A DNA stretch of 48,438 nt from NCBI GenBank assembly GCA_017302455.1, contig JAFLDO010000037.1, positions 1-48,438 on the forward strand, read 5' to 3'. Every line of letters starts with the position of its first letter. The stretch's first letter is position 1. Origin of the DNA: Accumulibacter sp. (lineage in GTDB: Bacteria > Pseudomonadota > Gammaproteobacteria > Burkholderiales > Rhodocyclaceae). Positions 2,419 to 20,314 of this stretch are shown here, in pieces. The translations under genes were made by a program, and so were the position numbers. The notes beneath the pieces are model-generated. The model was not told the origin of the DNA. It saw only the letters and a list, made by a program, of their open reading frames with translations, and made no database searches.

Positions 2419-3039
2419 ATGAGTCTATGTACGTGCCAGGGCGAATCATTTCTGGTCAGCGACAGTCCGGCACGCCGGCGATGGTTGCTGGCTACCGTCG
2501 GACTCGGCGGCGCGATGACACTGACTGCCATTGTGCCTTTCGTCAGTAGCCTGCTGCCGTCCGAGCGAGCAAAGGCAGCCGGCGCACCGGTGGAAGTCGA
2601 CATCGACAAAATCGCCCCGGGCGAAATGATCGTCGTTGAATGGCGGGGCAAGCCGGTATGGATTCTGCACCGAACACCGGCAATGCTGGAGGCCCTGAAG
2701 AAGGCCGAGCCGAATCTGGTCGATCCGGGATCGGAAGTCGCGCAGCAACCAGACTACGCGACCAACGAACATCGCTCACGAAAGCCGGAGTATCTCGTTG
2801 CGGTCGGCATCTGCACGCATCTCGGTTGCTCACCCGCCAAGGCTTTCGATTCCGGGGACAAGGCTCTGGGTGCCGACTGGGCCGGTGGTTTTCTCTGCCC
2901 CTGCCATGGATCGACCTTCGATTTTGCCGGCCGCGTCTTCAAGGACAAGCCGGCGCCGATCAATCTGGAAGTTCCCCCTCATACCTACCTGACGGACAGC
3001 CGCCTGATTATCGGTAGCGACCAGCGCGGGCAGGCCTGA
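2419..3039 (+). CDS. petA: Rieske iron-sulfur protein (ubiquinol-cytochrome c reductase type)
   Basis: 206 residues. The N-terminus has a twin-Arg-like stretch (ARRRWLLATVGLGG) leading into a single hydrophobic anchor, as in bc1-complex Rieske proteins. The two cluster-binding boxes are intact: CTHLGC and CPCHGS, giving two Cys and two His ligands for a [2Fe-2S] centre. The length is normal. No cytochrome b or c1 gene follows, unlike the usual petABC operon. Instead the next genes are a NifX-like protein and an MBL-fold hydrolase, so this is probably an extra Rieske copy with a specialised role. A -24/-12 promoter upstream suggests sigma-54 control. The symbol follows the family; whether it serves the main bc1 complex is uncertain. 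Confidence 0.9.
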   Translation: MSLCTCQGESFLVSDSPARRRWLLATVGLGGAMTLTAIVPFVSSLLPSERAKAAGAPVEVDIDKIAPGEMIVVEWRGKPVWILHRTPAMLEALKKAEPNLVDPGSEVAQQPDYATNEHRSRKPEYLVAVGICTHLGCSPAKAFDSGDKALGADWAGGFLCPCHGSTFDFAGRVFKDKPAPINLEVPPHTYLTDSRLIIGSDQRGQA

Positions 3040-3183
3040 TCCGTGCAAAAAGATCGGCGGAAGTGACTCGACAGATTCACAGGCGCAGCCGGCGGCCTTG
3101 GGGTCGCCGTCATGCGCCGCGTCGCCTCCTTCGCAGCGGGCACGCCCGCACTTCTCTTGTGATCGACACCAGAAGGAAACATC

Positions 3184-3582
3184 ATGCAGATCGCAGTGAC
3201 CAGCCAGAACCGCAAGACCATCACCGCGCACGCCGGGAAATGCCGCAAGTTCTGGATCTACGAAGTCGAGAAGGGCTTGGTCGTCGGCAAGCGCTTGGTC
3301 GAGGTTTCGATGGACGAGGTCTTGCACGCCAGTCATCAGCACCTGGCCGAGCCGCTGGCCGGAATCAACGTCCTGATTGCCGGTGGCATCGGCCCCGGTC
3401 TTTACGATCGCCTGATGCAGAGCGGCATTCTTCCTGTCATTACCCTGGAACAAGACCCCGATGTCGCCGTGGTGGCCCTGCTCGCCAACAACCTCGACCG
3501 GTTGCCCGTTGACCGCAGCCATCATAGCCACGAGCACCGCTTTGCGCCGTCATTGGCGCCCAGCGAGCGCGATTGCCGCTGA
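3184..3582 (+). CDS. NifX/NifB-type dinitrogenase iron-molybdenum cofactor biosynthesis family protein
   Basis: 132 residues. The fold signature of the NifX/NafY/NifB C-terminal family is visible: the opening MQIAVTSQNRKTITAHAGKC, the central LIAGGIGPGLYDRL glycine loop, and a closing strand before VVALL. The C-terminal tail is His-rich (HHSHEH), which might bind metal. Proteins of this family carry FeMo-co precursors or Mo-Cu/Fe-S clusters; many are not linked to nitrogenase, and no nif genes are seen here. An AGAAGGAAAC ribosome site lies just before the ATG. It sits between the Rieske gene and the MBL hydrolase, probably one transcript. Confidence 0.85.
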   Translation: MQIAVTSQNRKTITAHAGKCRKFWIYEVEKGLVVGKRLVEVSMDEVLHASHQHLAEPLAGINVLIAGGIGPGLYDRLMQSGILPVITLEQDPDVAVVALLANNLDRLPVDRSHHSHEHRFAPSLAPSERDCR

Positions 3583-3626
3583 AGCGAAGGCAGGCTCAGC
3601 GGCTGCCCATTTGCGAGGTAAGCACC

Positions 3627-4562
3627 ATGACCAGCATTGCTCCCACACTCGACATCGGCGCCCTCAAGCGTTTGCGCATTCTGTGCATCTCCGAAACTGG
3701 CTGGTTCGACACCGCTACCGTGTTTGACGACATTCGGGCCGCCGGCGGTGCCGAGACCGACCAGTACGCTATCCCGTGGCCGCCGTTCGGCCCCCTGCAC
3801 GCGGACAACGCTGCCGGTTTCTCGGCGCTCCTGGAGGCCGAGACGACCGATGGCAAGGTGCGCCGCCTGCTGTTCGACACCGGCTGGAACCCCGACTGGA
3901 TGGATCGCCGCTTCGCGGAGGAGGGCATAGACCGCCTGCTGCAGGAGGGCCGGATCGAGGCTTTGATCGTCAGTCACGAGCACTTCGACCACTTCTGGGG
4001 GATCGGCTCGACGCTCAGACACTGTCCCGCCATGCCGATTTACCTTCCCGAGGGCTTCCATCCGACAGGCCTGGCCTTCATTCGCGAGCAGGGTCATACG
4101 GGAAGTGTGATTACCGTTGCCAGCGGGCAGCCGCTGCTGCTGTTTCCCGGTCTGGCTGTGGTCAGCTTCCCGATGCGCACGCTGTTGCAGGTCCAGGGAG
4201 AAAACGTCCTCTACGCCAACCTGGAGAATCAGGGCTTGGCCATGATCACTGGCTGCGGTCACGGCGGCGTGCTGAACCTGCTCGACTATGCCCGCCGGAG
4301 CTTCACGGGTGGCGAGCGTATCCACGCGATCTACGGTGGACTGCACCTTTCTCCCCTGGAAGACTGGGACTCGGGCCGGGACCAGATCGTCAAGGCCCTG
4401 GGGGACTATGGGATCACCAAATTGGCGTGCAATCATTGCACCGGCCGCACGGCTGTCGAGAAGATGCTGGCGAGCGGCTTGCCCGTCCTGCGCGGGACGG
4501 CCCGGCACGGCTCCCAGACGGAATTGTTCCTGGGCAACGGCGACGCGCTGGAACTGGGGTAG
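3627..4562 (+). CDS. MBL-fold metallo-hydrolase (dihydropteroate/MptA-like beta-lactamase-fold branch)
   Basis: 311 residues. The metal-binding motif SHEHFDHFWG (HxHxDH) lies at about residue 120, followed by GCGHGG, YGGLHL and CNHCTG, which supply the further His/Cys ligands. The pattern, with a late CNHCTG box, is that of the F420/pterin-type MBL branch rather than a true beta-lactamase. The substrate cannot be read from the sequence. The frame opens upstream at 3573, but ATG at 3627 with GAGGTAAG before it is the better start. It is 44 nt after the NifX-like gene, so co-transcription is likely. Confidence 0.85.
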   Translation: MTSIAPTLDIGALKRLRILCISETGWFDTATVFDDIRAAGGAETDQYAIPWPPFGPLHADNAAGFSALLEAETTDGKVRRLLFDTGWNPDWMDRRFAEEGIDRLLQEGRIEALIVSHEHFDHFWGIGSTLRHCPAMPIYLPEGFHPTGLAFIREQGHTGSVITVASGQPLLLFPGLAVVSFPMRTLLQVQGENVLYANLENQGLAMITGCGHGGVLNLLDYARRSFTGGERIHAIYGGLHLSPLEDWDSGRDQIVKALGDYGITKLACNHCTGRTAVEKMLASGLPVLRGTARHGSQTELFLGNGDALELG

Positions 4563-4911
4563 CAATGCGCATCGAGCCGTAGAAGTCCGCGTCGCCGGTG
4601 ACCCTGCGGCGCGGGGATACCGAGCGGCCGGACGCAAGTGCCGGGCCACCGGTAGTGGTCATGGGGCGCGGGACCGGCGCTGAGCGGTGCTTTCGCCCGC
4701 CGGCATCCGCTGAACGGGTGTACGCGGCCGATCTGGCCGCTGCCGCGCCCAGGCACGGACCGGTAGGCGTGCCGATTCTCGGAACTGTCCCAGACGAGGA
4801 GCACGGCTTTCTGCTGGATGAACTCGATCGCGCGCCGCCGTCGGGCAACGTCATGGGGCTCGATCTCGACAGTTCGCGCGAAAAGCCTCGGCTTGCGCTA
4901 CGCTAGACGAT
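4563..4911. other. Gene-poor stretch with a possible decayed coding fragment
   Basis: No convincing complete gene. On the minus strand around 4740-4890 a frame reads VEIEPHDVARRRRAIEFIQ then KAVLLVWDSSENRH, which looks protein-like (a hydrophobic strand ending in WD, as in some DDE transposases) but breaks off without a normal start or end. The family is not identified. Confidence 0.25.
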
Positions 4912-4938
4912 CTACGCACTACGCACTACGCACTACGC
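4912..4938. repeat. Tandem 7-bp repeat
   Basis: CTACGCA occurs three times head to tail from 4912, followed by a partial fourth unit (CTACGC). It lies about 55 nt before the RIO1-type kinase start. Copy number of such a repeat could vary by slippage. Confidence 0.85.
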
Positions 4939-4993
4939 GCCGGCGCGCGGTGCGTGACGGAAGCCCCCAGTCAGCCCCCCACTCAAGGCCACC

Positions 4994-5830
4994 ATGAAAA
5001 CCCCGCACAGACTCACCGCACTCGTCGAAGAAGGCCTCGTCGATGAGGTGATTGGCCAATTGATGAGCGGCAAGGAGGCCACCGTCTATGTCGTTCGCTG
5101 CGGCGAGGCGATTCGCTGCGCCAAGGTGTACAAGGATGCCAATCAACGCAGCTTCCGCAAGAACGCCTCCTATCAGGAAGGCCGCAAGGTCAAGAACAGC
5201 CGGCAGGCGCGCGCCATGGAGAAAGGCAGCCGCTATGGGCGCCGGATGCAGGAAGAGGTCTGGCAGAGTGCCGAGGTCGATGCCCTGTATCGGCTGGCCG
5301 CCGCTGGCGTGCGGGTGCCGCAGCCGCACCTCTGCTTCGCCGGCGTGTTGCTGATGGATCTGGTGCTCGATGCCGACGGCCATGCGGCGCCGCGCCTGAA
5401 CGATGTCGAACTCAGCGAGGAACTGGCGCTGGCGTATCACGCCCTGCTCATGAATCAGGTGGTGCGCATGCTGTGCGCCGGCGTCATTCACGGTGATCTC
5501 TCCGAATACAACATCCTCGTTGGCGAAGGCGGGCCGGTCATCATCGACCTGCCGCAGGCCGTCGATGCGGCGGGCAACAGCGACGCCGCCGAAATGTTCG
5601 AGCGTGATGTGCTCAATCTGCGCACCTACTTCAGCGCCTTCGCGCCGACCCTCAAGGACACCCAGTACGGCAAGGAAATCTGGGCGCATTACGAAAGCGG
5701 CCTGCTGTCGCCGGAACTGGCCCTGACCGGTCAAGTCGTACTCGACGAGGGGCTCGCCGACGTCGACGCCGTTCTCCTCCAGGTCAAGCTGGCCATCGAG
5801 GAGAATGCCATCCGGCGCATGTGCGAATAG
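4994..5830 (+). CDS. RIO1-type serine/threonine protein kinase
   Basis: 278 residues, the usual size of the proteobacterial RIO1-like group. The short nucleotide loop SGKEATVYVV lies at about residue 25, the catalytic Lys in CAKVYK at about 44, the catalytic loop HGDLSEYNIL at about 165, and the metal-binding IIDLPQAVD at about 185, all intact. In eukaryotes and archaea RIO kinases act in small-subunit ribosome maturation; the bacterial role is poorly defined. It is a single-gene unit on the plus strand, converging on the membrane hydrolase gene. The start at 4994 is the first ATG and gives the normal N-terminus. Confidence 0.9.
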   Translation: MKTPHRLTALVEEGLVDEVIGQLMSGKEATVYVVRCGEAIRCAKVYKDANQRSFRKNASYQEGRKVKNSRQARAMEKGSRYGRRMQEEVWQSAEVDALYRLAAAGVRVPQPHLCFAGVLLMDLVLDADGHAAPRLNDVELSEELALAYHALLMNQVVRMLCAGVIHGDLSEYNILVGEGGPVIIDLPQAVDAAGNSDAAEMFERDVLNLRTYFSAFAPTLKDTQYGKEIWAHYESGLLSPELALTGQVVLDEGLADVDAVLLQVKLAIEENAIRRMCE

Positions 5831-5965
5831 TCCGGGCGTCGATGCACGCCGCTGCCGCTGTGGCAGCACGGCGCTGCCTGCAGGTAAACGGCGCGCCGCC
5901 GACAGGCTCTGCCGGTGTGCTCCCGGCACGACAGCGGACCATTCCGGGCGAGCTTGCGCCGAGCT

Positions 5966-6472
5966 TCACTTCCTGTGCTTGCGCCCGTCAAGCCAATGCG
6001 AGATCGCGAAGTAGAGGCTTATCCCAACGAGACCGCTGTAGACACAGAACTCGTGGAGCGCCGCAACGGACACCAAGCCAAGCACCCGGTTGTCCAGGAT
6101 AAAGGGTGCGAACGGCTCGATATCGGTATGCATCACGCTGTCGAGCAGCACGTGACTGTACGAACCAATGACGGCACTAACGATTGCGACGGGCCAACTG
6201 ATTGGCGAGTCACGAGACCGGCCCAGCAGGCGGAGGCCCAACTCGGCCGCGTATTTTCCCGTCAGCGCTGACCCGATACCAATCAGCGTTGCGCCGACAT
6301 AGGTATGCGAAAAACCATGCAAATGCCCTTCGCCGGTGATCATGACGACCAGCGGCTGGATATCCATGATGATTTGCGCCCAGGCAAAGACCATCAGTGA
6401 AAAGCTTCCCTGAAGAAGCGCCTTCAACAGCAAGCCAGGTCCCATGTGGAAAGGAGTAAAGGGCACGCTCAA
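5966..6472 (-). CDS. Small membrane-bound metal-dependent hydrolase-like protein
   Basis: 168 residues with about four hydrophobic segments. Conserved polar spots sit in the membrane parts: TPFHMGPG at the N-terminus, HLHGFSHT, SHVLLDSVMH and the DIEPFAPF turn. This H-x4-D type pattern is typical of the YdjM/DUF4184-like group of predicted inner-membrane metal-dependent hydrolases. No substrate is known from the sequence. It converges with the RIO1-type gene, with 135 nt between the two stops, in which only a weak hairpin (TGCCGG/CCGGCA near 5917-5935) was seen. The 182 nt upstream of the start hold nothing recognisable. Confidence 0.75.
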   Translation of the reverse strand: MSVPFTPFHMGPGLLLKALLQGSFSLMVFAWAQIIMDIQPLVVMITGEGHLHGFSHTYVGATLIGIGSALTGKYAAELGLRLLGRSRDSPISWPVAIVSAVIGSYSHVLLDSVMHTDIEPFAPFILDNRVLGLVSVAALHEFCVYSGLVGISLYFAISHWLDGRKHRK

Positions 6473-6654: not shown

Positions 6655-7362
6655 TCATGACTTGCTCGGCAAGGCGCCGACAAATCGGTAGCCGACACCC
6701 GCCTCGGTGCGAAGGTGCTTCGGTCGCGCGGGATCGTCCTCGATCTTCTTGCGCAGATTGCCCATATAGACGCGGACGTAGTGGCTGTCTTCGACGTGTC
6801 CGGGGCCCCAGACGTTCTTCAGTAGCTGGCGGTGGGTCAGCACGCAATCGGGATTGGCGATCAGATAGCTGAGGAGCCGATACTCGATCGGCGTCAGGTG
6901 GAGGGGCGCTCCGTCGCGCTCGACCGTACGCCGCGCCAGGTCGACGCGAATCGACCCGAACTCGGCGAGCGCCGTGCCGCCGGCGCTACGGCTGCGGCGG
7001 CGCAGGTGCGCGCGTACGCGGGCGAGCAACTCGGCAGCACCAAAAGGCTTGGTCAGGTAATCGTCGGCACCGGCATCGAGCGCGGCCACCTTGTCGATCT
7101 CGGTCGTGCGCGCCGAGAGTACGAGCACGGGGATCTCCGACCAGGCTCTCAGATCACGGATGAAGTCGATGCCGTCACCATCGGGCAGGCCGAGATCGAG
7201 CACCACCAGATCCGCGCGGCGGGTGCCGGCCTCGATCAGGCCGCGCTTGACGCTGTCGGCCTCGAAGACCTGAAACCCCTCGCTTTCGAGCGCCAGCTTG
7301 ATGAAACGGCGGATATTGGCTTCGTCCTCGACGACGACGATGCCGGTCGTCGGCTCCGTCAT
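6655..7362 (-). CDS. kdpE: KdpE-type response regulator
   Basis: 235 residues: a receiver domain (1-120) with the acidic pocket VEDE and phosphoacceptor Asp56 (VVLDLGLPDGDG), the switch residues LSA and KPFGAAELLAR, then an OmpR/PhoB winged helix (about 135-230) with LTPIEYRLLSYL and GVGYRF. The whole matches KdpE closely. It is on the same strand as kdpFABC and kdpD, but about 4.5 kb of opposite-strand genes (kinase, second regulator, kup) separate it from kdpD. It is the presumed partner of the full-length KdpD; phosphorylated KdpE activates kdpFABC when K+ is low. The start at 7362 overlaps a tiny upstream reading frame by 4 nt and has no clear Shine-Dalgarno of its own. Confidence 0.92.
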   Translation of the reverse strand: MTEPTTGIVVVEDEANIRRFIKLALESEGFQVFEADSVKRGLIEAGTRRADLVVLDLGLPDGDGIDFIRDLRAWSEIPVLVLSARTTEIDKVAALDAGADDYLTKPFGAAELLARVRAHLRRRSRSAGGTALAEFGSIRVDLARRTVERDGAPLHLTPIEYRLLSYLIANPDCVLTHRQLLKNVWGPGHVEDSHYVRVYMGNLRKKIEDDPARPKHLRTEAGVGYRFVGALPSKS

Positions 7363-7415
7363 GGCGCGCGCTGCCCGGCGCCGGTTTTCGCTTGCTGGTC
7401 TTCCAGGTTGTTCAT
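7359..7415 (-). CDS. Possible 18-aa leader peptide before kdpE
   Basis: ATG at 7415 opens an 18-codon frame (MNNLEDQQAKTGAGQRAP) whose TGA overlaps the kdpE ATG as ATGA. Because kdpE lacks a clear ribosome site, translation could be coupled through this leader. It may equally be chance; there is no homology evidence. Confidence 0.25.
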   Translation of the reverse strand: MNNLEDQQAKTGAGQRAP

Positions 7416-7660
7416 GTCACGACGCTCGCGTTGAGGGAAGTGGTGCAGGCGCGCTGCTTGCCGACCCGGGCCGGCGAGACGTCTCCGCCTCGCTGGCATT
7501 GCCCCGCGACGGCGGTCGGCTCCGCCCTGGACAGGCGGCTCAAGCCAGACGGATAGTAACAAGAAGCCACCCCGCACTGAACAGCTCAGGCACTTGCGCG
7601 TGTCGTTCTCGCCGATCCTGGCAAGGATGCCCTGTGCGGTATCGCCGCCGTCGGCAAGTG

Positions 7661-7677
7661 TTTACACCATTTTTACG
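7661..7677 (+). promoter_or_regulatory. KdpE-box-like direct repeat before the second kinase-regulator-kup operon
   Basis: TTTACA (7661-7666), 5 nt, TTTACG (7672-7677). The E. coli KdpE site is TTTATA-N5-TTTACA, so spacing is exact and each half differs from a canonical half by one or two bases. It points toward the kinase gene, whose GTG is 48 nt downstream. No strong -10 box was found, and with E. coli geometry the transcript would start at about the GTG, which is a caution. Confidence 0.55.
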
Positions 7678-7725
7678 TCGCATTCCGGACACTGACGGCA
7701 TCGCGTTCTGACTCCGCTTGCCGCC

Positions 7726-9255
7726 GTGAAAACTGGACTCCCCTCCCGCTGGCGCCGCGCCCCGTATCTGGTGGCCGCCGCGCTTTGTACCCTGACCACG
7801 CTGGGCACGCTTCCGCTGCGTGGCCTGCTCGATCTCGCCAACATCGTGATGATCTTTCTGCTGACGGTTTTCGTCGCGGCGGTGTGGCTTGGGCGGGGCC
7901 CATCGGTCATGGCGGCCTTCCTCGGGGTGGCCCTCTTCGACTTCTTTTTCGTGCCGCCACATCTGTCATTCGACGTCGCCGACGGGCAGTATCTGGTGAC
8001 TTTCGCGGTCATGCTTGCCGTCGGCCTGATCTCGTCGCATCTTGCGGCATTGCTTTCGGAGCGGACCGCCGAGGCCCAGTCGCGAGAACAGGAGACGCGC
8101 GTCCTTTACCAGTTGGCACGCGATCTGGGTGGCGCTTTGACGGCTGATCAGGTCGCCGACATTACACGGCATTTCCTGGGCGCTGTTGAGCTGGATGTGA
8201 CGCTGCTGGTCGCCGAGGCTTCGGGCAAGGGAGTCGCGTTCCATGAGTTCCATGAATACGGTAGCCACCGCCTGAATGATCTGGAGTACGGCTTCGCGCG
8301 TTCGGCCTACGAACGCGGCACCATCGTCGAGACCGATCCCCTGGCCGGCATGGGCGTAGCCATCGTCTTTCTGCCCCTCGTCGTACCGACCCGTGTCCTC
8401 GGGGTGCTGGCTCTGGTACCCCGGTCGGACGACGTCGACCGGGTGCGTGCACTGCGGCCCTTGCTGGAAGCGGTGGCATCGCTGCTGGCGATCACGCTCG
8501 AGCGGCTGCATTACGCCGATGCCGCGCAGGACAGCGAACTGCAGGTCTCCGCGGAGCGGCTGCGCACATCGATCCTGTCCTCCTTGTCGCACGATTTGCG
8601 GACACCGCTGACGAGTCTCGTCGGGCTCGCCGATACCCTGGTGCACAGGCAGCCGGCGCTCGACGAAGGCGCCATCGAGACGGCCGCGATCATCCGCGAC
8701 CAGGCGCATGCCATGCATCACCTGATGTCCAACCTGCTCGAAATGGCTCGCCTGCAGGCCGGCAGCATCACGCTGAACAAGGAGTGGCAGCCCTTCGAGG
8801 AGATCGTCGGCTCCAGCACGCGCCTGCTGGCGGGTCTTCTCGCCAGCCGCAAGCTCGACATTCAGGTGCCGCGCGATCTGCCGCTGGTGGACTTCGATGC
8901 CGTGTTGCTGGAGCGCGTCCTGTGCAACCTGCTGGAGAACGCGGCCAAGTATTCCCCGCCGGGGGCGCGCATCGAGGTGCTGGCGCGCACGCGCGGAGAG
9001 GCGCTGGAAATCGCCGTCGGTAACGACGGCCGCGGTTTTCCCGTGGATCGCATCGACCAGGTTTTCGACCTGTTTGCCAGGGGCGAGCGCGAGCCGGCCG
9101 TCGCCGGTACCGGCCTGGGGCTGGCGATCTGCAAGGCCATCGTCGAGGCGCACGGCGGTACGATCGTCGCCGAGAACCGTCCCGGCGGCGCCTGTGTGCG
9201 TTTCACCCTTCCTCTCGGCACGCCCCCCGCCATGGACGAGGAGGGCACGTCATGA
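7726..9255 (+). CDS. Short KdpD-like sensor histidine kinase (DUF4118-GAF-HisKA-HATPase)
   Basis: 509 residues. It corresponds to the C-terminal half of KdpD only: four closely spaced membrane segments (about 12-110) with the KdpD-type FDFFFVPP loop, a GAF-like region (about 130-260), a dimerisation helix with His289 (SSLSHDLRTPLTSLVGL) and an ATPase domain with NLLENAAKY, NDGRGFP and GTGLGLAICKAI. The N-terminal KdpD P-loop domain and the universal-stress-like domain, which sense cytoplasmic signals, are missing and no trace lies upstream. The start is GTG at 7726. It overlaps the next regulator gene by 4 nt (ATGA). It is a paralog of the complete KdpD in the same window and presumably signals to the adjacent regulator. 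Confidence 0.9.
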   Translation: MKTGLPSRWRRAPYLVAAALCTLTTLGTLPLRGLLDLANIVMIFLLTVFVAAVWLGRGPSVMAAFLGVALFDFFFVPPHLSFDVADGQYLVTFAVMLAVGLISSHLAALLSERTAEAQSREQETRVLYQLARDLGGALTADQVADITRHFLGAVELDVTLLVAEASGKGVAFHEFHEYGSHRLNDLEYGFARSAYERGTIVETDPLAGMGVAIVFLPLVVPTRVLGVLALVPRSDDVDRVRALRPLLEAVASLLAITLERLHYADAAQDSELQVSAERLRTSILSSLSHDLRTPLTSLVGLADTLVHRQPALDEGAIETAAIIRDQAHAMHHLMSNLLEMARLQAGSITLNKEWQPFEEIVGSSTRLLAGLLASRKLDIQVPRDLPLVDFDAVLLERVLCNLLENAAKYSPPGARIEVLARTRGEALEIAVGNDGRGFPVDRIDQVFDLFARGEREPAVAGTGLGLAICKAIVEAHGGTIVAENRPGGACVRFTLPLGTPPAMDEEGTS

Positions 9256-9941
9256 ACGAGACGACCGCGCGCGTCATCGTCGTCGAGGACGAGCCGCAAA
9301 TCCGCCGCTTCGTGTGTGATGCCCTGCGCCGCGAGGGCTGCGCTTCGATCGAGGCGGCCACGGCGCGCCAGGGGCTGGACGAACTTGCCCGTGGCAAGGC
9401 GGATCTGGTGATCCTCGACCTGGGTCTGCCCGACATGAACGGTATCGAATTCATCCGCGACATGCGTAGCTGGTCGGCAGTGCCGATCCTCATTCTTTCG
9501 GCCCGCTCGGCCGAGCGCGACAAGATCGCCGCCCTTGACACGGGTGCCGACGACTATCTCTGCAAACCCTTTGGTGTCGGTGAGTTGCTGGCGCGCTTGC
9601 GGGCCTTGCTGAGACGCCACTGGCAAGCCGGCGAGGCCAGTCCCCTACATCGGTTCGGCGACGTCGAGGTGGATCTGTCCCGGCGCATCGTCAGCCGGGG
9701 GGGCGTCGAGATTCACCTGACGCAAATCGAGTATCGCCTCCTGGCGGTGATGCTCGCCAACAGCGGCAAGGTACTGACCCATCGCTACCTCATCCGGGAG
9801 GTGTGGGGACCCGGGCACAGCGAGCAGGGCCACTACCTGCGCATCTACGTTGGCCGCCTACGCCAGAAGCTCGAGATGGACCCGACGCAGCCGCAGCACC
9901 TTCTGACCGAGACCGGCGTCGGCTATCGCTTTCAATCCTGA
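9252..9941 (+). CDS. Second KdpE-like response regulator (OmpR/PhoB family)
   Basis: 229 residues: a receiver with VEDE and phosphoacceptor Asp56 (VILDLGLPDMNG), switch residues LSA and KPFGVGELLAR, then a winged helix with LTQIEYRLLAVML and GVGYRF. It aligns with the KdpE at 6655-7362 almost without gaps, so the two are clear paralogs, including similar DNA-recognition helices (THRxLxxxVWGPGH). It is coupled to the short kinase upstream and is 23 nt before kup. It is therefore the likely local regulator of kup, though it may also bind the kdp promoter. Confidence 0.92.
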   Translation: MNETTARVIVVEDEPQIRRFVCDALRREGCASIEAATARQGLDELARGKADLVILDLGLPDMNGIEFIRDMRSWSAVPILILSARSAERDKIAALDTGADDYLCKPFGVGELLARLRALLRRHWQAGEASPLHRFGDVEVDLSRRIVSRGGVEIHLTQIEYRLLAVMLANSGKVLTHRYLIREVWGPGHSEQGHYLRIYVGRLRQKLEMDPTQPQHLLTETGVGYRFQS

Positions 9942-9964
9942 ATCCTGAAGCAAGAGGTAAGCAC

Positions 9965-11839
9965 ATGTCTGAAAACACCGGCGAGAGCCGTCTGGCCGGC
10001 CTGTCGCTGGCTGCCCTTGGCGTAGTCTATGGCGACATCGGCACCAGTCCTCTGTACGCGATCAAGGAAGTCTTCGGCGGTGAACACCACCCGGTGCCGA
10101 TCACGCCTGACAATGTCTTCGGCATTCTCTCGTTGATTTTCTGGTCGCTGATGATCGTGGTCAGCCTGAAGTACGTGCTGTTCATCATGCGCGCCGACAA
10201 CAAGGGCGAAGGCGGCATCATGTCCTTGATGGCGCTGGCCCTGCGACCGATCGCGGAAGGCTCGTGGCAGCGCCGCCTGATCATGATTCTCGGTCTGTTC
10301 GGAGCGGCGCTGTTCTACGGTGACGGGGTGATCACGCCGGCGATTTCCGTTCTCTCGGCGGTCGAGGGCCTCGAAGTGGCGACTCCGGCCTTCAAGCCGT
10401 ACGTGCTGCCAATCTCGTTGATCATCCTGGTGCTGCTGTTCGCGGTGCAGCGTCACGGCACGGCTGCAGTGGGCAGGTTTTTCGGGCCGATCATGGTGCT
10501 CTGGTTCCTGACGCTGGGCGCGCTGGGCTTATTCAGCATCGCCCACGAGCCGCAGGTGCTGAGCGCGCTGGGGCCTTGGCACGCCGTGCGTTTCTTCGAC
10601 GACAACCCGATTCTCGGCTTCTTTGCACTCGGCGCCGCCGTGCTTGTGCTGACCGGTGGCGAAGCGCTGTACGCTGACATGGGGCACTTCGGACACAAAC
10701 CGATCCAGTTGGCCTGGTTTGGCCTCGTGTTGCCGGCGCTGGTCATCAACTATTTCGGGCAGGGAGCGCTGCTGTTGCGCGACCCGCAAGCCATCACCAA
10801 TCCGTTCTATCTGCTGGCGCCCGACTGGCTGCTCTATCCGATGGTCGTGCTGTCCACGGTGGCAACCGTGATCGCGTCGCAGGCTGTGATTTCCGGCGCT
10901 TTCTCGATTACGCAGCAGGCGATTCAGCTCGGTTTTACCCCGCGCATGGAGATCAGCCACACGTCGGATCAGCAGATGGGGCAAATCTACCTGGCGGGCA
11001 TCAACTGGAGCCTGCTGGCAGCGGTCATTGTACTGGTGCTCGGCTTTGGCAGTTCGTCGAACCTGGCGGCGGCGTACGGCATCGCCGTCACGGGAACGAT
11101 GTTCATCACCGATCTGCTGGCCTTCGTCGTCGCGCGATACGTCTGGGGCTGGCCCGTCTGGCGCGCGTTTCTCGGTGCGCTGCCTTTCGCAATCATCGAT
11201 CTGGCCTATTTCTCCGCCAACTCGGTGAAGATCGCTGGCGGCGGCTGGTTCCCGCTGCTCTTCGGCCTCGCCGTCTATGTGCTGCTATCCACCTGGAAGC
11301 GCGGCCGCGACCTGCTCAGCGCACATCTGGCCATGGATGCGATGGATACGGGAAGCTTCATGCAAGCGATTGGCGGGGCGCGACGGGTACCCGGGACAGC
11401 GATATTCCTCACCTCCAATCCCGACAATGTGCCGCACTCCCTACTGCACAGCCTGAAGCACTACAAGGTGTTGCACGAGCGCATCGTGCTGGTCTCCGTC
11501 CATATCCTCGACGTTCCCCGGCGTGCGGACGCCAGCCGGGTCGAGGTCGTGCACATGACCAGTGACCTCTGGCAGGTGAAGGTTTTCTACGGCTTCATGG
11601 AGCAACCCAACCTGCCGAACGCGCTGGAAGAGTGTGCCGCCTACGGGCTCGATTTCGACCCGATGGATACCTCTTTCTTCCTCGGTCGGGAAACCCTGCT
11701 TCCGCGACTGAATACCGACATGTGTCGCTGGCGCGGCAAGCTCTTTGTGTGGATGTTCCGCAACGGTGGCAGCGCCGCCAACTTCTTCGGTTTGCCGGCC
11801 AATCGCGTGGTCGAGCTGGGTACGCAGGTCGTCATGTAG
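9965..11839 (+). CDS. kup: Kup-type low-affinity potassium uptake protein
   Basis: 624 residues. The N-terminus has the family signature GDIGTSPLYA and then FGDGVITPAISVLSA-type sequence (here FYGDGVITPAISVLSA), about 12 membrane helices to residue 430 or so, and a soluble C-terminal domain starting near VPGTAIFLTSNPD. This is a K+/H+ symporter of the inner membrane. The frame is open further upstream, but ATG at 9965, preceded by AGAGGTAAG, is the right start. It ends the kinase-regulator-kup operon and its stop overlaps the kdpD stop (opposite strand) by 8 nt. Confidence 0.95.
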   Translation: MSENTGESRLAGLSLAALGVVYGDIGTSPLYAIKEVFGGEHHPVPITPDNVFGILSLIFWSLMIVVSLKYVLFIMRADNKGEGGIMSLMALALRPIAEGSWQRRLIMILGLFGAALFYGDGVITPAISVLSAVEGLEVATPAFKPYVLPISLIILVLLFAVQRHGTAAVGRFFGPIMVLWFLTLGALGLFSIAHEPQVLSALGPWHAVRFFDDNPILGFFALGAAVLVLTGGEALYADMGHFGHKPIQLAWFGLVLPALVINYFGQGALLLRDPQAITNPFYLLAPDWLLYPMVVLSTVATVIASQAVISGAFSITQQAIQLGFTPRMEISHTSDQQMGQIYLAGINWSLLAAVIVLVLGFGSSSNLAAAYGIAVTGTMFITDLLAFVVARYVWGWPVWRAFLGALPFAIIDLAYFSANSVKIAGGGWFPLLFGLAVYVLLSTWKRGRDLLSAHLAMDAMDTGSFMQAIGGARRVPGTAIFLTSNPDNVPHSLLHSLKHYKVLHERIVLVSVHILDVPRRADASRVEVVHMTSDLWQVKVFYGFMEQPNLPNALEECAAYGLDFDPMDTSFFLGRETLLPRLNTDMCRWRGKLFVWMFRNGGSAANFFGLPANRVVELGTQVVM

Positions 11840-14525
11840 CTCCCCCTTCTTCGACAACCGTCGGCGGTACGCCACGCGGCAGCGAAAAGATGAAACGTGC
11901 GCCGCCGCGGGGGCGGTTCTCGGCATGAATCCGGCCGCCGTGCGCCTCGACGATGGCGCGGCAGATCGCCAGACCAAGGCCAACGCCGGAGGTCGTGCTC
12001 TCCCGTGCGCCGCGCTCGAACTTCTCGAAAATGCTCTCCTCGCGCCCTCGTGGCAAGCCTGGCCCACTGTCGTCCACCCACACCTCAACCTCATTTTCAC
12101 GCGCCGCTGCACCAATACTGACCGGCGTGCCGGCCGGCGTGTACTTGGCAGCGTTGTCGAGGAGATTACAGAGCACACGTTCGATCAGTACGCCGTCGAT
12201 TTCGAGCAGCGGCAGATCATCGGGCAGGGCGGTATGCACGGAATGGGCGGCAAGCGACACGTCGGTGGCCATCAGCGCGCTGCCGACGACTTCCTCGAGC
12301 GGCTGCCACTGGCGCTTGAGTTGGACCTTGCCGGCCTGCAGACGCGCCATGTCGAGCAGACTGTTGACTTTGGTGCTCATGCGTAGCGCTTCTTCCTTCA
12401 GCGTTGCGGCAATCGTGGCCTGGGCATCGGTGGGTGGCGGCTGCGTCAGCCGGATCGACTCGGCCAGGCCCACCAGCACGCTCAAGGGCGTCCGCAGATC
12501 GTGCGAGATCGCCGACAGCAGGGAATTGCGCAGACTCTCCGACTCCATCTGCACCAGCGTGGTTTGCGCGACGTCGACATAGTGCATGCGCTCGACGGCG
12601 ATCGCCACCAGGCTGGCAAAGGTCTCGAGTTGCCGGCGCGCCTCCGGCCCCTGCACGCGCAGCGGGTCGCGGGGTGCAATGGCGAGCACGCCGCGCGTAC
12701 GCATTGGGGCCTTGAGCGGCAGGTAGAGGAGCGGGCTACCCGGCAAGGTATCGGTGGACAGCCCAGCCGCCTCGCCGTGATCGAAGGCCCAGCGGGCCAC
12801 ACCTTCGTCTACGACCGGCGTCTCGCCGGCGGCGGCTTTGGCAGCAAGTATCGCCGCTTGCAGGTGATCCCTGGTATCGGTCAGCAAGAGCGCTGCCCGG
12901 GCACCGAATTCGACCACCAGAAAGCGGTCGCAAGCCTCGGCGATCTGCACCGGCAGCAAAGCCGCCGACAGATCTCGGGCCATTTCGTAGAGCCCGCGCG
13001 CGCGCGCCTCGCGCTGTGTCGCCACCTCGGCGTGCTGCTTGTAGCGCGCGGTGAGCTGGCCGGTGATCAGCGCCACGATGAGCATCACGCCAAAGGTCAT
13101 CAGATATTGCGCATCGCTGACGGCGAAGGAAAAGCGCGGCGGCACGAAGAAGAAGTCGAAGGCGGCAACCGCCAGAAAGGCGCTGAGCACTGCTGGGCCG
13201 CGTCCAAGACGCATGGCCACGATGAGTACGGCAAGCAGGAACAGCATGGCGATGTTGGTGAGTTCGATCGCGCCTGCCAGCGGCGCTGCCAGAGCAGTTG
13301 CCACGGCACAGATTGCCGTGGCCTTGAAATAGGCCAGCCACTCGCCCGGTGTCGGTGGAGCCGTCGGCGATGGCACGGCGGTCCGTGCGTCGTCGTTGCG
13401 CGCCACCTGGACCACGTCCAGGTCGGGTGCGGCATGACCAACGCGCTCGACCATCGAGCGGTACCATGGTTGCCAACGGCGTGGATGGTCGCGGCCGACG
13501 AGCACCCGTGACAGGTTGTGTTCGCGCGCATAATCGACAACCGTCGCGACAGCGTCGTCAGCCGAAAGCGTCGCCGTTTCAGCGCCAAGCGAACTGGCAA
13601 GATCGAGCGCGCGCACGATGCGCTGCCGCTGCAATTCGGGCTCCGGCCCAGCGGTGTGCGTGTCGACGTGAACGGCATGCCAGGGGGCCTCGAGTCGGCC
13701 CGCCAGACGCGCCGCGGTGCGCACCAGTCGCTCGCCGCCGGTGCCTGGTCCAATGCATACCAACAGTGCATCGCGCGTTTGCCATACCGTATTGATCGAG
13801 GTTTCGCGGCGGTAGGCCAGCATCTCGTCGTCGACCCGGTCGGCAGTGCGGCGCAAGGCCAACTCGCGCAGGGCGATCAGGTTGCCCTTGCGGAAGAAAT
13901 TGCGGATCGCCCGTTCCGCCTGTTGCGGCAGGTAGACCTTGCCCTCTTTCAAGCGCTGCAGCAGTTCGTCGGGCGGTAGATCGACCAGCACCACTTCGTC
14001 GGCGGCGTCGAAGACACGGTCGGGTACCGTCTCCCAGACGCGAATGCCGGCGATGCCGCTGACGACATCGTTGAGCGTTTCCAGATGCTGCACATTGACC
14101 GTGCTGTAGACGTCGATGCCGGCAACGAGCAACTCATGCACGTCCTGCCAGCGTTTCGGATGCCGCGACCCGGCGACGTTGGAATGGGCCAGTTCGTCCA
14201 TCAGGATCAGCGCCGGACGGCGCGCCAGTGCGCCGTCGAGATCGAACTCCTTGAGCATCCTGTCGCGATGAGCGATGTCGCGCAATGGCAGCCGTTCGAG
14301 GCCCGCGAGCAGGGCCTCGGTTTCCTTGCGGCCATGCGTCTCGACGACACCGATGACCACGTCCGTCCCCAGCTCTTTCTGCTGACGAGCGGCACCGAGC
14401 ATCGCGTACGTCTTGCCGACGCCGGCAGAGGCGCCGAAGAAGATCTTCAGCTTGCCGCGCGCAGCTTTGGCCTCTTCCTCCTGGACGCGTGCGAGGAGTC
14501 GATCGGGGTCGGGTCGTTCGGTCAT
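11832..14525 (-). CDS. kdpD: Sensor histidine kinase KdpD, full length
   Basis: 897 residues. Order of domains: KdpD P-loop domain (about 20-230) with Walker A GASAGVGKT and LILMDELAHSN; universal-stress-like domain (about 245-370); four membrane helices of DUF4118 (about 400-495) with FDFFFVPP; a GAF-like region; dimerisation helix with His675 (SAISHDLRTPLSVLVGL); ATPase domain with DNAAKYTPAG, DSGPGLP and GVGLGLAICRAI. The frame opens at 14612, but ATG at 14525 overlaps the corA stop as ATGA and gives the normal N-terminus (MTERPDPDRLLARVQEE). It senses low K+ and ionic stress and phosphorylates KdpE. It is unusual in being coupled to corA, and in lacking kdpE directly downstream. Confidence 0.95.
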   Translation of the reverse strand: MTERPDPDRLLARVQEEEAKAARGKLKIFFGASAGVGKTYAMLGAARQQKELGTDVVIGVVETHGRKETEALLAGLERLPLRDIAHRDRMLKEFDLDGALARRPALILMDELAHSNVAGSRHPKRWQDVHELLVAGIDVYSTVNVQHLETLNDVVSGIAGIRVWETVPDRVFDAADEVVLVDLPPDELLQRLKEGKVYLPQQAERAIRNFFRKGNLIALRELALRRTADRVDDEMLAYRRETSINTVWQTRDALLVCIGPGTGGERLVRTAARLAGRLEAPWHAVHVDTHTAGPEPELQRQRIVRALDLASSLGAETATLSADDAVATVVDYAREHNLSRVLVGRDHPRRWQPWYRSMVERVGHAAPDLDVVQVARNDDARTAVPSPTAPPTPGEWLAYFKATAICAVATALAAPLAGAIELTNIAMLFLLAVLIVAMRLGRGPAVLSAFLAVAAFDFFFVPPRFSFAVSDAQYLMTFGVMLIVALITGQLTARYKQHAEVATQREARARGLYEMARDLSAALLPVQIAEACDRFLVVEFGARAALLLTDTRDHLQAAILAAKAAAGETPVVDEGVARWAFDHGEAAGLSTDTLPGSPLLYLPLKAPMRTRGVLAIAPRDPLRVQGPEARRQLETFASLVAIAVERMHYVDVAQTTLVQMESESLRNSLLSAISHDLRTPLSVLVGLAESIRLTQPPPTDAQATIAATLKEEALRMSTKVNSLLDMARLQAGKVQLKRQWQPLEEVVGSALMATDVSLAAHSVHTALPDDLPLLEIDGVLIERVLCNLLDNAAKYTPAGTPVSIGAAARENEVEVWVDDSGPGLPRGREESIFEKFERGARESTTSGVGLGLAICRAIVEAHGGRIHAENRPRGGARFIFSLPRGVPPTVVEEGGAT

Positions 14526-15487
14526 AGCCAGCCCAGGCGCCGAAAGCGGAAGAAGAGAAACCCCATGGCGCCAGCGATCATGGTCAACGCCATTGGGTAA
14601 CCGTATTCCCATTGCAATTCAGGCATCACCTTGAAGTTCATCCCCCAGATACCGGCAAAGGCGGTCGCGATGGCAAAGATCCCGGCCCAGGCGGCTAGGC
14701 GCTTGGCGACATCGTTCTGTTCGATGGCCACCGATGAAAGACTGACCTGGATGGCGGTGCCGATGGTGTCGCGTAGGACATCGAGGTGCGCGTTGATGCG
14801 CGTCAGGTGGTCATAGACGTCGCGGAAATAGTGGCGGCTACTGGCCGAAACCGGTGGTACGCGACCGCTGGCAAGCTTGCTGACAGCCTCCATCAGCGGC
14901 GCCACCGCGTGCTTGACGATGGTTACGCGGCGTTTCAGGTCGTAGAGGCGCTCGATGTTGAGGCGTGCCGCGCCGCGCTCGAAGATGCGCTCCTCGATAC
15001 CTTCGAGCTCAGATTCCATGCTATCGACGATCGGAAAATAGCGGTCGACGACGGCATCCATCAAGGCGTAGAGGACGAAACCCGACCCTTGCTTGAGAAC
15101 CTCGGGCTCGCGTTCGCAGCGTTCGCGCACACCCAGCAGATGCTGGCCGCTGCGGTTGCGCACCGAGAGAATAAAATTGCTGCCGACGAAAATATCCACC
15201 TCGCCGATGGTGATCTCGCCATGCTCCATTTCGAGGAGGTGAATCACGGCGAACAGGCTGTCGCCATACTCTTCGAGCTTCGGCCGCTGGTGACCGTGGT
15301 TCGCGTCTTCGATGGCGAGCGCGTGCAGGTTGAACTCGATACGCATTTTGTCGAGTTCTGCCGGGGTGGCATCGCGCAGGGCGACCCAGACGAAGCAGTC
15401 CGGATGCTGCAGGTAGTCGCTGATTTCATCGGTGTCGATATCGGCAAGCTTCTTGCCTTCGCGGTAGGCAACGCAATTGATCAGCAT
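14522..15487 (-). CDS. corA: CorA-family magnesium/divalent cation channel
   Basis: 321 residues. A soluble N-terminal funnel domain with long helices (about 130-250), then two C-terminal membrane helices with the signature WGMNFKVMPE at the pore entrance and a basic tail (FFRFRRLGWL). GMN is required for Mg2+ selection in this family. The frame is open further upstream; ATG at 15487 (MLINCVAYREGKK) is preferred because the extension is low-complexity. It lies 83 nt after kdpC and overlaps kdpD by 4 nt, so it is translated with kdpD. CorA is not a normal member of the kdp operon. The symbol marks the family; Co2+, Zn2+ or other substrates are possible. Confidence 0.9.
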   Translation of the reverse strand: MLINCVAYREGKKLADIDTDEISDYLQHPDCFVWVALRDATPAELDKMRIEFNLHALAIEDANHGHQRPKLEEYGDSLFAVIHLLEMEHGEITIGEVDIFVGSNFILSVRNRSGQHLLGVRERCEREPEVLKQGSGFVLYALMDAVVDRYFPIVDSMESELEGIEERIFERGAARLNIERLYDLKRRVTIVKHAVAPLMEAVSKLASGRVPPVSASSRHYFRDVYDHLTRINAHLDVLRDTIGTAIQVSLSSVAIEQNDVAKRLAAWAGIFAIATAFAGIWGMNFKVMPELQWEYGYPMALTMIAGAMGFLFFRFRRLGWL

Positions 15488-15570: not shown

Positions 15571-16146
15571 TCACGGCGCCAGCGCGTCGAGGGCGAGGTT
15601 GAGTCTGAGGACGTGCACCCGCGCTTCGCCGAAGACGCCGAGGTCGCGGCCCTCCGTATTCGCGGCAACGAGTTGCCGCACGGCCTTCGTCTCGAGATGG
15701 CGGGCGCGCGCAACGCGCTCCGCCTGGTAATCGGCGGCGGCCGGGCTGATGTGCGGATCGAGACCGCTGGCCGAAGCCGTGACCAGATCTATCGGTATGG
15801 GTCGCTGGTTCCCTGGGTCGGCGGCGTGCAGCGCTTCGACCCGACCCTTGACGGCATCGGCGAGGGCCGGGTTCAAGGGTCCCTGGTTCGAGCCCGAGGA
15901 TGCGGCAGCGTTATAGGGTTGGGGTGCTGTTGCGGAAGGGCGGCCCCAGAAGTACTTCGGATCGCTGAAGTTCTGGCCGATCAGTGCAGAGCCGATCGGT
16001 TGGCCGTCCTTGATGATCAGGCTGCCGCCCGCGGCAGCAGGAAAGGCGATCCGGGCCACGCCGGTGACCAGGAACGGATACAGGACGCCGGTAACGAGCG
16101 ACAGCAACACGAACAGAGAAATGGCGGGACGCAGCAGCGTTTTCAT
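15571..16146 (-). CDS. kdpC: Potassium-transporting ATPase subunit C
   Basis: 191 residues with one N-terminal membrane helix ([20 protein letters not shown]) and the conserved periplasmic boxes [49 protein letters not shown] and a closing [12 protein letters not shown] motif. KdpC stabilises the KdpFABC complex and raises ATP affinity. ATG at 16146 with GAGGTATCA before it is taken as the start; the frame is open to 16164, overlapping the end of kdpB. It is 10 nt from the kdpB stop. Confidence 0.95.
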
Positions 16147-16156
16147 TGATACCTCC

Positions 16157-18223
16157 TCAGGCAAGACCGGCGGCGGCCAGCGCCATGTCGATCAGTTTGA
16201 TACCGATAAAGGGGGCGACCAGACCACCGAGGCCGTAGATCGCCAGGTTGCGACGCAGCAGGCTGGCGGCACCGACGGCGTGGTAGCGTATCCCCTTCAA
16301 GGCCAGGGGAATCAATGCGATGATGATAAGGGCATTGAATATGACCGCCGAGAGAATCGCCGAGGCTGGGCTGGCCAGTCCCATCACGTTGAGTGCCGAG
16401 AGCGCCGGGTAGGTGCTGACGAAGGCGGCCGGAACGATCGCGAAATACTTGGCGACGTCGTTGGCGACGCTGAAGGTGGTCAGCGCGCCGCGGGTCATCA
16501 GCATCTGCTTGCCGGTCTCGACGACTTCGATCAGCTTGGTCGGATTCGAGTCGAGGTCGACCATGTTGCCGGCTTCCTTGGCGGCCTGCGTGCCGGTGTT
16601 CATGGCCACGGCGACGTCGGCCTGGGCCAGTGCCGGGGCGTCATTGGTGCCGTCGCCGGTCATCGCCACCAGGCGGCCCTCGGCCTGGTACTGGCGGATC
16701 AGCGCCAGCTTGGCCTCCGGCGTCGCCTCGGCAAGAAAATCATCGACGCCCGCCTCGGCGGCGATCGCCGCCGCGGTCAGACGGTTGTCGCCGGTGATCA
16801 TCACCGTCTTGATTCCCATCTGCCGCAGTTCGCCGAAGCGTTCCTTGATACCGCCCTTGACGACGTCCTTCAATTCGACGACGCCGAGCACGCGCGTGCC
16901 GTCGGCAACGACCAGCGGCGTGCTGCCGCGTCGCGCCGCCGCCTCGACCGCTGTCAGCACCGACGCTGGCATGGCGCCGCCGATGGCCTCGACATGCTGG
17001 CGGATGGCGTCGGTCGCCCCCTTGCGAATCTGCCGGCCATGCACATCGACGCCGCTCATCCGGGTCTGCGCCGAGAAATGCACGAACTGCGCTGCGAGCG
17101 CGTGCACGTCGCGCTCGCGCAGGTTGAAGCGCTGCTTGGCGAGGACGACGATGCTGCGTCCTTCAGGCGTTTCGTCGGCGAGCGATGCCAGTTGCGCGGC
17201 GTCGGCGAGTTCGGCCTCGCTGACGCCCTCGGCGGGCAGAAAGGCGGCGGCCTGACGATTGCCGAGCGTGATCGTGCCGGTCTTGTCGAGCAGCAGCACG
17301 TCCACGTCACCGGCGGCTTCGACCGCGCGGCCTGAGGTGGCAATCACGTTGGCCTGCATCATGCGACTCATGCCGGCGACGCCGACAGCGGAAAGCAGTC
17401 CGGCAATGGTCGTCGGAATCAGACACACCAGCAGCGCGATGAGAACGGTGATGCTGACCGGCGAGCCCGACCCGGCCACCGTCACGCTGAACTGGGAGAA
17501 CGGCAGCAGCGTCGCGGTGACGCCGAGGAAGACGACAGTCAACGCCGCCAGCAGGATCGTCAACGCGATTTCGTTCGGCGTCTTCTGCCGCTTCGCCGTC
17601 TCGACCATGGTGATCATGCGGTCGACGAAAGTCTCGCCGGGATTGACGGTGACACGCACCACCAGCCAGTCGGAGAGCACGCGCGTGCCGCCGGTCACCG
17701 CCGAGAAGTCGCCGCCCGATTCGCGGATCACCGGCGCCGATTCGCCGGTGATCGCCGATTCGTCGACAGAAGCAACGCCTTCGATCACCTCGCCGTCGGC
17801 GGGGATGGTTTCGCCGACACTGACCAGCACGACGTTGCCGACGCGCAACTCGTCAGCGGCGACAGTTTGCCATTCGGCGTCCGCGCGCGGCGCCTGCAGC
17901 CGCTTTGCCCAGGTTTCCTTCTTCAGACCGCGCAAGGACGCCGCCTGAGCCTTGCTGCGCCCTTCGGCCAGGGCCTCGGCGAAGTTCGCGAAGAGCACGG
18001 TAAACCACAGCCACATCGCGACGCCGAGGATGAACGCGGTCGACTCCTGACCCGGACCGCTCAGGGCTGGGACCGCCGCCAGTGTCGTCAGGATCGAGCC
18101 GATGAAGACGACGAACATCACCGGATTGCGCCACTGCACGCGTGGGTCCAGCTTGCGAAACGAGTCGCCGATGGCCGGCTTGAGCAACGCCGGGTCGAAC
18201 AGGGAAAACGTCTTGCGTGTCAT
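16157..18223 (-). CDS. kdpB: Potassium-transporting P-type ATPase subunit B
   Basis: 688 residues, normal length. The actuator loop TGES lies at about residue 165 (ITGESAPV; in E. coli KdpB the Ser of this loop is an inhibitory phosphorylation site), the phosphorylation motif DKTGTIT at about 315, nucleotide-binding and hinge motifs with MITGDN and [20 protein letters not shown] further on. This is the catalytic, ATP-hydrolysing subunit of the inner-membrane KdpFABC K+ pump. It follows kdpA by 16 nt with an ATTCAC/GAGAATTTC-type leader and is clearly part of one transcript with kdpF, A and C. Confidence 0.97.
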
Positions 18224-20051: not shown

Positions 20052-20140
20052 GAAAAGTCCTCCGGAAAAAGCAGGGCCGCGATCAGGTAGACCAGCAGGC
20101 CAGCAGCGGCGAGGCCAGCGAGAATGGTGAGCAGGCTCAT
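20048..20140 (-). CDS. kdpF: KdpF small membrane subunit
   Basis: 30 residues ([20 protein letters not shown] then [10 protein letters not shown]), one membrane helix followed by the FPE-type end typical of KdpF. It stabilises the Kdp complex at the lipid interface. Its stop overlaps the kdpA ATG (ATGA) and its own ATG overlaps the stop of the micro-ORF upstream (ATGA), giving a chain of three coupled genes. Confidence 0.9.
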
Positions 20141-20266: not shown

Positions 20267-20295
20267 ATGATAGGCAGCGGCATGTCAAGACAGTC
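20267..20295 (-). promoter_or_regulatory. Candidate kdp promoter
   Basis: On the minus strand, GACTGT (20295-20290) and TATCAT (20272-20267) are 17 nt apart, a weak -35 with a fair -10, as expected of an activator-dependent promoter. The start would be near 20260, about 28 nt before the first micro-ORF. Confidence 0.45.
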
Positions 20296-20314
20296 GAAAA
20301 GGCAGGGTGTCGTC

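Follow-up and report, generated by a model that had tools for sequence, protein, structure and literature searches.

Why should a potassium transporter with a two-component system of its own lie, in opposite orientation, between the two regulatory genes of a kdp operon? The question is raised by a 48,438-nucleotide stretch of DNA from Accumulibacter sp. (GenBank assembly GCA_017302455.1, contig JAFLDO010000037.1, positions 1 to 48,438 of the forward strand; hereafter the window), in which kdpF-A-B-C-corA-kdpD and kdpE are all encoded on the minus strand, with a gap of ~4.5 kb between kdpD and kdpE. This gap is filled by a plus-strand trio: a short KdpD-type kinase (here termed sK), a KdpE-type regulator (sR) and kup. 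We consider it probable that the trio is an autonomous, autoregulated K+-transporter switch, which shares its operator type with kdp and has been inserted at the kdpD/kdpE junction.

The genes of the trio are tightly packed. sK (7726-9255, plus strand, GTG start) and sR (9252-9941, plus strand) overlap by ATGA, and kup (9965-11839, plus strand) follows sR after 23 nt; this spacing suggests that the three form one operon. On one side, the full-length kdpD (11832-14525, minus strand; longest frame from 14612) terminates within the sequence antisense to the end of the kup frame, so that the two frames share 8 nt at their stops (11832-11839). On the other side, kdpE (6655-7362, minus strand) is preceded by an 18-codon leader open reading frame (ORF; 7359-7415, minus strand) that overlaps the kdpE start by ATGA; this ORF is possibly the old 3' end of kdpD, cut off. 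The gene order, strands, domain content and stop overlap described in the initial annotation were all confirmed by the reading of ORFs and Pfam domains. Nested order and 8-nt overlap both recur in a second genome, G023 (locus L002), and hence are no assembly artefact; the leader has the same length and the same overlap there.

Both proteins of the inserted pair are recognizable members of the KdpD/KdpE lineage. KdpD comprises the Pfam domains PF02702, DUF4118, GAF, HisKA and HATPase; sK has DUF4118, HisKA and HATPase in the same order and a sub-threshold GAF match (23.5 against a cut-off of 27), and PF02702, the N-terminal KdpD serine-kinase domain, was not found in it by the Pfam scan. sK and the C-terminal part of KdpD share 231 identical residues in 509 aligned columns (14 gap columns). 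In the NCBIfam equivalog models, kdpD passes NF007793 with 1129 bits (cut-off 1123), which sK fails with 412, and kdpE passes NF007820 with 346 bits (cut-off 325), which sR narrowly fails with 322.3, ~3 bits below. The two regulators give a gap-free alignment of 227 positions, of which 131 are identical, and both carry Asp56, as initially annotated. Arg193, Arg200 and Thr215, named as important in E. coli KdpE (PMC3264566, in the part consulted), are conserved in both sR and kdpE in an alignment to E. coli KdpE (4kny), the residue numbers being placed on the assumption of a two-residue offset of the 4kny chain. Kup has both its membrane domain (PF02705) and its C-terminal domain (PF22776) and scores above the TIGR00794 cut-off. 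A KdpD/KdpE ancestry with loss of the N-terminal half and a tie to kup, as had been proposed, is thus supported by profiles and trees alike, and a grouping with unrelated two-component systems, which would have spoken against it, was seen neither in the profiles nor in the kinase and regulator trees. What was lost had been called the cytoplasmic sensor half: the loss itself stands, but serine-kinase/Usp half is the better label, since the K+-sensing sites suggested for KdpD lie in the transmembrane and GAF domains (PMC11018627, from the sections used here), parts which sK retains in outline.

The wider distribution of the trio places its origin outside the window. Relatives were profiled in the best 80 of 567 confirmed loci of a species-genome collection, with flanks of up to 8 kb. 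Among these 80, 23 loci hold kinases without the KdpD N-terminal domain; sR and kup adjoin the kinase in 22 of them, the remaining one (L034) ending at a contig edge. The trio lies inside kdp only in L002 (Accumulibacter sp. Bin45, a metagenome-assembled genome), and no kdp genes were seen in the flanks of the others. When the C-terminal halves of 83 kinases were placed in a tree, with a fragment of the window kdpD (L001) dropped, the 24 short kinases form one side of a branch with full support in the Shimodaira-Hasegawa-like approximate likelihood ratio test (SH-aLRT 100). In a tree of 103 rows, rooted by our choice on four alphaproteobacterial KdpDs, the window sK is placed in a large short-kinase clade (55 rows, SH-aLRT 95), whereas the window kdpD groups with ordinary KdpDs of the genus; a stray kinase fragment (L074) sits there on a very long branch and was dropped from the box, divergence, partner, independent-pair and single-clade analyses described below. 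The regulator tree (97 rows) repeats the pattern, with sR among the regulators of short kinases and kdpE with the ordinary kdpE of the genus, among them those of G023, G007 and G005. Judged by these trees, the trio is an older, portable module, not a local copy of the window kdpDE; the pair descends from KdpDE, but long ago and elsewhere. Of the duplication that had been proposed, the descent from a KdpDE pair therefore stands and the local event does not: a recent origin of sK and sR in place from the window kdpDE, followed by truncation and capture of kup, would suit the clear homology and adjacency of both pairs, yet it is refuted by the trees, in which sK and sR go with free-standing modules of other genera, fits poorly with G007, where kdpDE is uninterrupted and the module lies on a different contig, and is in our estimate scarcely credible.

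What the short kinases have lost is closely related to the transporter that they accompany. The N-terminal domain of KdpD has been shown to be an atypical serine kinase, which works through Ser162 of KdpB to inhibit the pump (PMC11018627, in part). To relate domain and partner, 216 distinct kinases were collected, with near-copies removed; they were found by similarity to sK and hence are no random sample. A partner was counted when kdpABC lay on the same strand within 9 kb or Kup, Trk or a channel within 700 nt, neighbours being recognized with a few query proteins, so that other K+ transporters could escape. Six kinases cut at their 5' end were set aside. With the serine-kinase domain (n = 95), 88 kinases stand beside same-strand kdpABC, two have neither neighbour, five are cut, and none has Kup or Trk on the same strand; opposite-strand kup occurs in three of the 88 (the window, L002 and L301). 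Without the domain (n = 115: 105 lacking any N-terminal match, 10 with a Usp-like remnant), 92 have Kup, TrkH/TrkA or a TrkA_N-type K+ channel as a neighbour (same strand in 86, opposite strand in six), and none is beside same-strand kdpABC, the two nested ones facing kdp on the other strand. Pfam confirmed TrkH as partner in ten loci, TrkA in L158 (3954-5378, PF02254) and L203, and the channel in L120. The approximately unbiased (AU) test rejects a tree in which all domain-less forms make up one clade (p = 1.6e-10; 76 versus 26 rows), so that, by this tree, the serine-kinase domain is lost more than once; domain and partner each change five times on the tree and never apart in 81 rows, and all four independent pairs (4/4) agree. 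We also considered a pre-fusion origin, in which the stand-alone histidine kinase (HK) would be older than full-length KdpD, and rejected it: in the rooted tree the domain-less forms are scattered in several places among full-length KdpDs, which secondary loss fits better.

Counts by genome, which depend less on the choice of loci than the set of 216 kinases, give a similar picture. Of 150 genomes of the family, 55 have a domain-less kinase, and in 52 it is linked to K+ transport (a Kup, Trk or channel gene is seen in 51, one lying at a contig end); G046, G106 and G131, with only domain-less kinases lacking an adjacent K+ gene, are outside the 52. Full PF02702 occurs in 34 of the 150 (that of G110 cut by the contig), and the same 34 have KdpA. 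In 37 of the 52, both full PF02702/KdpD and KdpA are lacking; there is no association between the two systems (Fisher p = 0.22). In a sample at the level of the order, 10 of 13 short-frame loci have kup; L270 retains part of the serine-kinase domain, and beside the pairs of L267 and L268 no K+ transporter was detected.

Variants of the arrangement were seen as well. The kinases with a Usp-like remnant (n = 10) have same-strand kup upstream in nine cases and convergent trkH in one; of four scanned remnants, one exceeds the Usp cut-off, two narrowly miss it and one gives no match. In another class of the phylum (L257, L258, L260, L274, L275 and L302-L305), kup is followed by a KdpD-like kinase with such a remnant and without the serine-kinase domain, and then by a KdpE-like regulator; the same idea is built there in a second way. 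In L184, L187, L189, L191 and L203, trkH converges on the regulator gene of a short-kinase pair; four of these loci, included in the tree, form their own clade, grouped with the full-length KdpD L036. L301 (G519) has an ordinary kdpABC-kdpD-kdpE, with an opposite-strand kup converging on kdpE at a distance of ~99 nt. A domain-less kinase and a KdpE-like regulator without a detected K+ gene within 700 nt are found in L194, L197-L200, L204, L241-L243, L245, L247-L249, L252, L253, L256 and L267; electron transfer flavoprotein, enoyl-CoA hydratase or serine hydroxymethyltransferase genes are neighbours in L198, L199 and L204.

A second line of evidence comes from the promoters. The E. coli KdpE half-sites are TTTATA and TTTACA, five bases apart (PMC3264566, in part), and the same half-site spacing is found before the trio, at 7661-7677 (plus strand; TTTACA-N5-TTTACG). 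The exact pattern TTTA-N7-TTTA occurs just twice on both strands of the window, where composition predicts 0.08: before sK and before kdpF (TTTATC-N5-TTTACA, 20315-20331, minus strand). Within 300 nt upstream of module kinases, the box is present in 63 of 82 loci, the window included (shuffle mean 0.32), and on the reverse strand in none of the 82; upstream of kdpA it is present in 17 of 25 regions (shuffle mean 0.27), and domain-less kinases that lack a K+ partner have it in 5 of 23 cases. Ten bases past the box, the 63 aligned module boxes share a conserved A (85%) and T (92%), which suggests a -10 element, with the box covering the -35 region; in the window, the corresponding GACACT (7688-7693, plus strand), 10 nt past the box, is the candidate. 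At the window kdp promoter, a candidate -10 (TATCAT, 20267-20272) and, in the near position, a degenerate box (20283-20299, minus strand) were recognized by eye, the exact box lying 32 nt further upstream. The modules of G001, G024 and G027, genomes without KdpA and without full-length KdpD, also carry the box, so that sR, rather than a kdp-linked KdpE, is its likely reader there.

These observations suggest how the module may work. sK, with its membrane and GAF-like sensor parts kept and the serine-kinase/Usp half gone, would phosphorylate sR, which would bind the KdpE-type direct repeat over the -35 region of its own promoter and recruit polymerase; kinase, regulator and Kup would thus be made together, most likely at K+ shortage. 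The serine-kinase half may be absent because its target, KdpB, is not the partner. As the kdp promoter has this box type too and the DNA-binding residues of sR and KdpE agree, the two circuits probably use common operators, and in the simplest model sR and KdpE could meet at both window promoters. The cross-talk that had been envisaged between the circuits may thus gain a concrete basis. Insulation of the two pairs was sought in the kinase-facing helix of the regulators and not found: mean divergence is 0.10 in the helix and 0.11 in the remainder of the receiver, so that nothing in this helix argues for it. In the kinases, the dimerization and histidine phosphotransfer (DHp) region has some group-specific positions.

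Several points weigh against this scheme. The exact box is missing at 19 of the 82 module loci and at 8 of the 25 kdp promoters, including those of the nested G023 and of G007. Among the 115 domain-less kinases, no K+ gene was detected within 700 nt of 17 and a further six are cut, and one of the 5'-cut kinases set aside (L268, a 542-aa frame) lies ~6 kb from kdpA on the same strand; four independent pairs, moreover, are too few for significance at 0.05 in a sign test. Of all parts of the short kinase, the GAF region has changed most (mean divergence 0.30 versus 0.13-0.16 elsewhere, in 75 short and 64 full-length kinases, with seven short forms of other clades and four alphaproteobacterial rows left out), and the signal may have shifted with it. 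Finally, kup of Sinorhizobium fredii goes down at low K+ and strongly up in a kdpDE mutant, and KdpE does not bind the kup promoter (PMC9239096, in the excerpt used), so that the sign of control could be the opposite.

How far do these points favour other schemes? A noncontiguous operon acting as a reciprocal switch appears quite improbable: kdpF-A-B-C-corA-kdpD and kdpE would be read as one transcript running antisense through the module, the module in turn would be antisense to it, and high-affinity Kdp and low-affinity Kup, with their common operator type, would exclude each other through transcription and the shared regulators. An opposite-strand unit likewise interrupts the genes of the operon menE-menC-MW1733-ytkD-MW1731 of Staphylococcus aureus (PMC7154746, in part), but in the window kdpE may have its own promoter. 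Repression by sR, which would shut Kup off when K+ is scarce so that Kdp takes over, with autorepression keeping sR low, is somewhat easier to entertain, although still unlikely. A protein bound at the position of the box could also block polymerase, and the kup behaviour of S. fredii, without KdpE binding, would be in line with it. However, the 37 of 52 module genomes in the family sample that lack KdpA have no Kdp pump to hand over to, and the spacing from box to -10 element is like that of class II activation by PhoB-family regulators.

Slightly better placed, yet rather unlikely too, is a signal other than K+, such as turgor, Na+, pH or the state of nitrogen or of the phosphotransferase system (PTS), in response to which Kup would serve osmotic or pH adjustment. 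The strong remodelling of the GAF region and the absent serine-kinase/Usp half would fit such a shift, but the transmembrane region is conserved with KdpD (mean divergence 0.13), and a K+ transporter or channel accompanies 92 of the 115 domain-less kinases. A GAF motif, T-x-T-L-P, was tried as a clean marker of the two groups and discarded: it is present in 79 of 95 full-length kinases, 9 of 82 short ones that have a K+ partner and 2 of 23 that do not.

An autoregulated switch, activated by sR, thus stays the preferred reading of the module itself; what the nested position means can be approached within the genus. A search for the gene order in related genomes, as the initial annotation had advised, found the nested arrangement once more, in G023, and hence in 2 of the 12 sK-bearing genomes. 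Among 28 genomes of the genus, with presence judged by identity and frame length, 12 have sK and 18 full-length KdpD (both 9, sK alone 3, KdpD alone 9, neither 7); KdpA is found in the same 18 as KdpD. The uninterrupted state is preserved in G007: KdpA to KdpC are 87-95% identical to those of the window, kdpD runs into kdpE with an ATGA overlap, and the module is on a contig different from that of kdp. The kinase of this module (L124) is split over two reading frames, by assembly error or decay. G023 shares both junction features of the window, the kdpD stop in the antisense of kup and the 18-codon leader overlapping kdpE. In G001 (listed as 100% complete, without KdpA), module and corA are intact amid collinear scraps of kdp: kdpE (116 nt, 89%), kdpD (99 nt and 141-158 nt, 80-81%), kdpC (120 nt, 73%) and kdpB (39 nt, 92%). 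PF02702 still matches there over 26 residues, and beyond the scraps the kdp promoter box has left a weak trace (21 of 24 nt; E = 0.02 taken alone). The free-standing module of G005 carries 105 nt of the kdpD 3' end (89%), while the kdp locus of this genome, ~210 kb distant, differs in kind (its KdpD is 67% identical).

These versions can be ordered most simply as follows. In the ancestor, the module would have been located elsewhere in the genome and then inserted at the kdpD/kdpE junction of a once uninterrupted kdp; on insertion, kdpD would have gained a new stop in the antisense of kup, and kdpE would have been cut off behind the short leader ORF. The kinases of the window, G023, G001 and G005 share a clade (SH-aLRT 100), so that the insertion is most simply placed before their split; in G001, the module seems to have outlived kdp, and in G005 it apparently left, or was left by, its kdp neighbours. 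Whether the nested position has any function is, in our view, evenly balanced: the module may equally have hitch-hiked neutrally into a harmless junction, with the two systems independent there. Its nesting in so few of the module-bearing genomes, its undoing in G001 and G005 and the lack of an exact box at the G023 kdp promoter would agree with hitch-hiking. The same box type at both window promoters, however, and the state of the genes speak against it: between the window and G023, kdpE, sK, sR, kup, kdpD and corA all show an excess of third-position changes and no stops, which indicates that both systems are kept where both remain.

Upstream of kdpD follow, all on the minus strand, a corA-type channel gene (14522-15487; PF01544, above the TIGR00383 cut-off; longest frame from 15574), kdpC (15571-16164; PF02669), kdpB (16157-18223; assigned by the P-type ATPase domains PF00122 and PF00702 and by operon position), kdpA (18240-20051; PF03814) and a 30-aa ORF read from the sequence (20048-20140), which we presume to be kdpF. 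A further ORF of 31 codons plus stop (20137-20232, minus strand), by its look a small membrane peptide, lies ahead of kdpF and overlaps it by ATGA. Several kdp operons of betaproteobacteria (the window, L028, L076 and L080) carry corA, in the same orientation, between kdpC and kdpD; in G007 (L125) corA is reduced to a 3' tail before kdpD. Beyond kdpE, four ORFs of 168-375 aa (2830-6472, minus strand) gave no Pfam match at E 1e-5. On the side of the kdp promoter, two ORFs overlap in opposite directions (20432-21280, plus strand, with a CBM96 match; 20590-21417, minus strand).

Among known systems, KdpD/KdpE-kdpFABC of E. coli, of which the window also holds a full-length counterpart, shares with the trio the kinase and regulator families and the box spacing; the trio differs in that sK lacks the serine-kinase/Usp half and sits with kup, and in that sR falls just below the KdpE cut-off. 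Split KdpD, in which a serine-kinase chain and a chain of transmembrane, GAF and HK parts are separate, is most common in Acidobacteriota and Chloroflexota (PMC11018627, in part). Its HK-only chain, with transmembrane and GAF domains, resembles sK, but species with split KdpD are described as having a Kdp pump and keeping the separate serine-kinase chain, whereas kinases of the sK type sit with Kup or Trk, often without Kdp; in the window genome, the only PF02702 is that of the full-length kdpD. The survey in that study covered 5495 species with an annotated Kdp pump and, in its text as available to us, did not include further variants beside full-length KdpD, so that modules like the trio fell outside it. 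S. fredii also has Kup and Kdp in one genome and a K+-dependent kup transcript, yet the excerpt of PMC9239096 mentions no regulator pair dedicated to kup. In the window, kup (also called trkD) comes last in an apparent operon that includes a two-component system of its own. Among the titles and abstract beginnings listed in searches of open-licence papers, none reported a short KdpD linked to Kup or Trk, and the accessible part of a Caulobacter paper (PMC8552747) does not mention kup.

Since uninterrupted, nested and decayed versions coexist in one genus, the order of events has become readable. Evolution itself provides an independent test of the 2024 claim that the serine-kinase domain shuts off the Kdp pump, in the way in which this domain is partitioned by partner transporter. 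K+ and Mg2+ accompany polyphosphate, and their handling is of interest in a relative of Accumulibacter for this reason. Beyond the genus, a dedicated Kup- or Trk-linked system is commoner than KdpD in the family sample (52 versus 34 of 150 genomes). While trk and kup of E. coli are called constitutively expressed (PMC5458449, in part), many betaproteobacterial genomes thus appear to give Kup or Trk a KdpDE-type system of its own.

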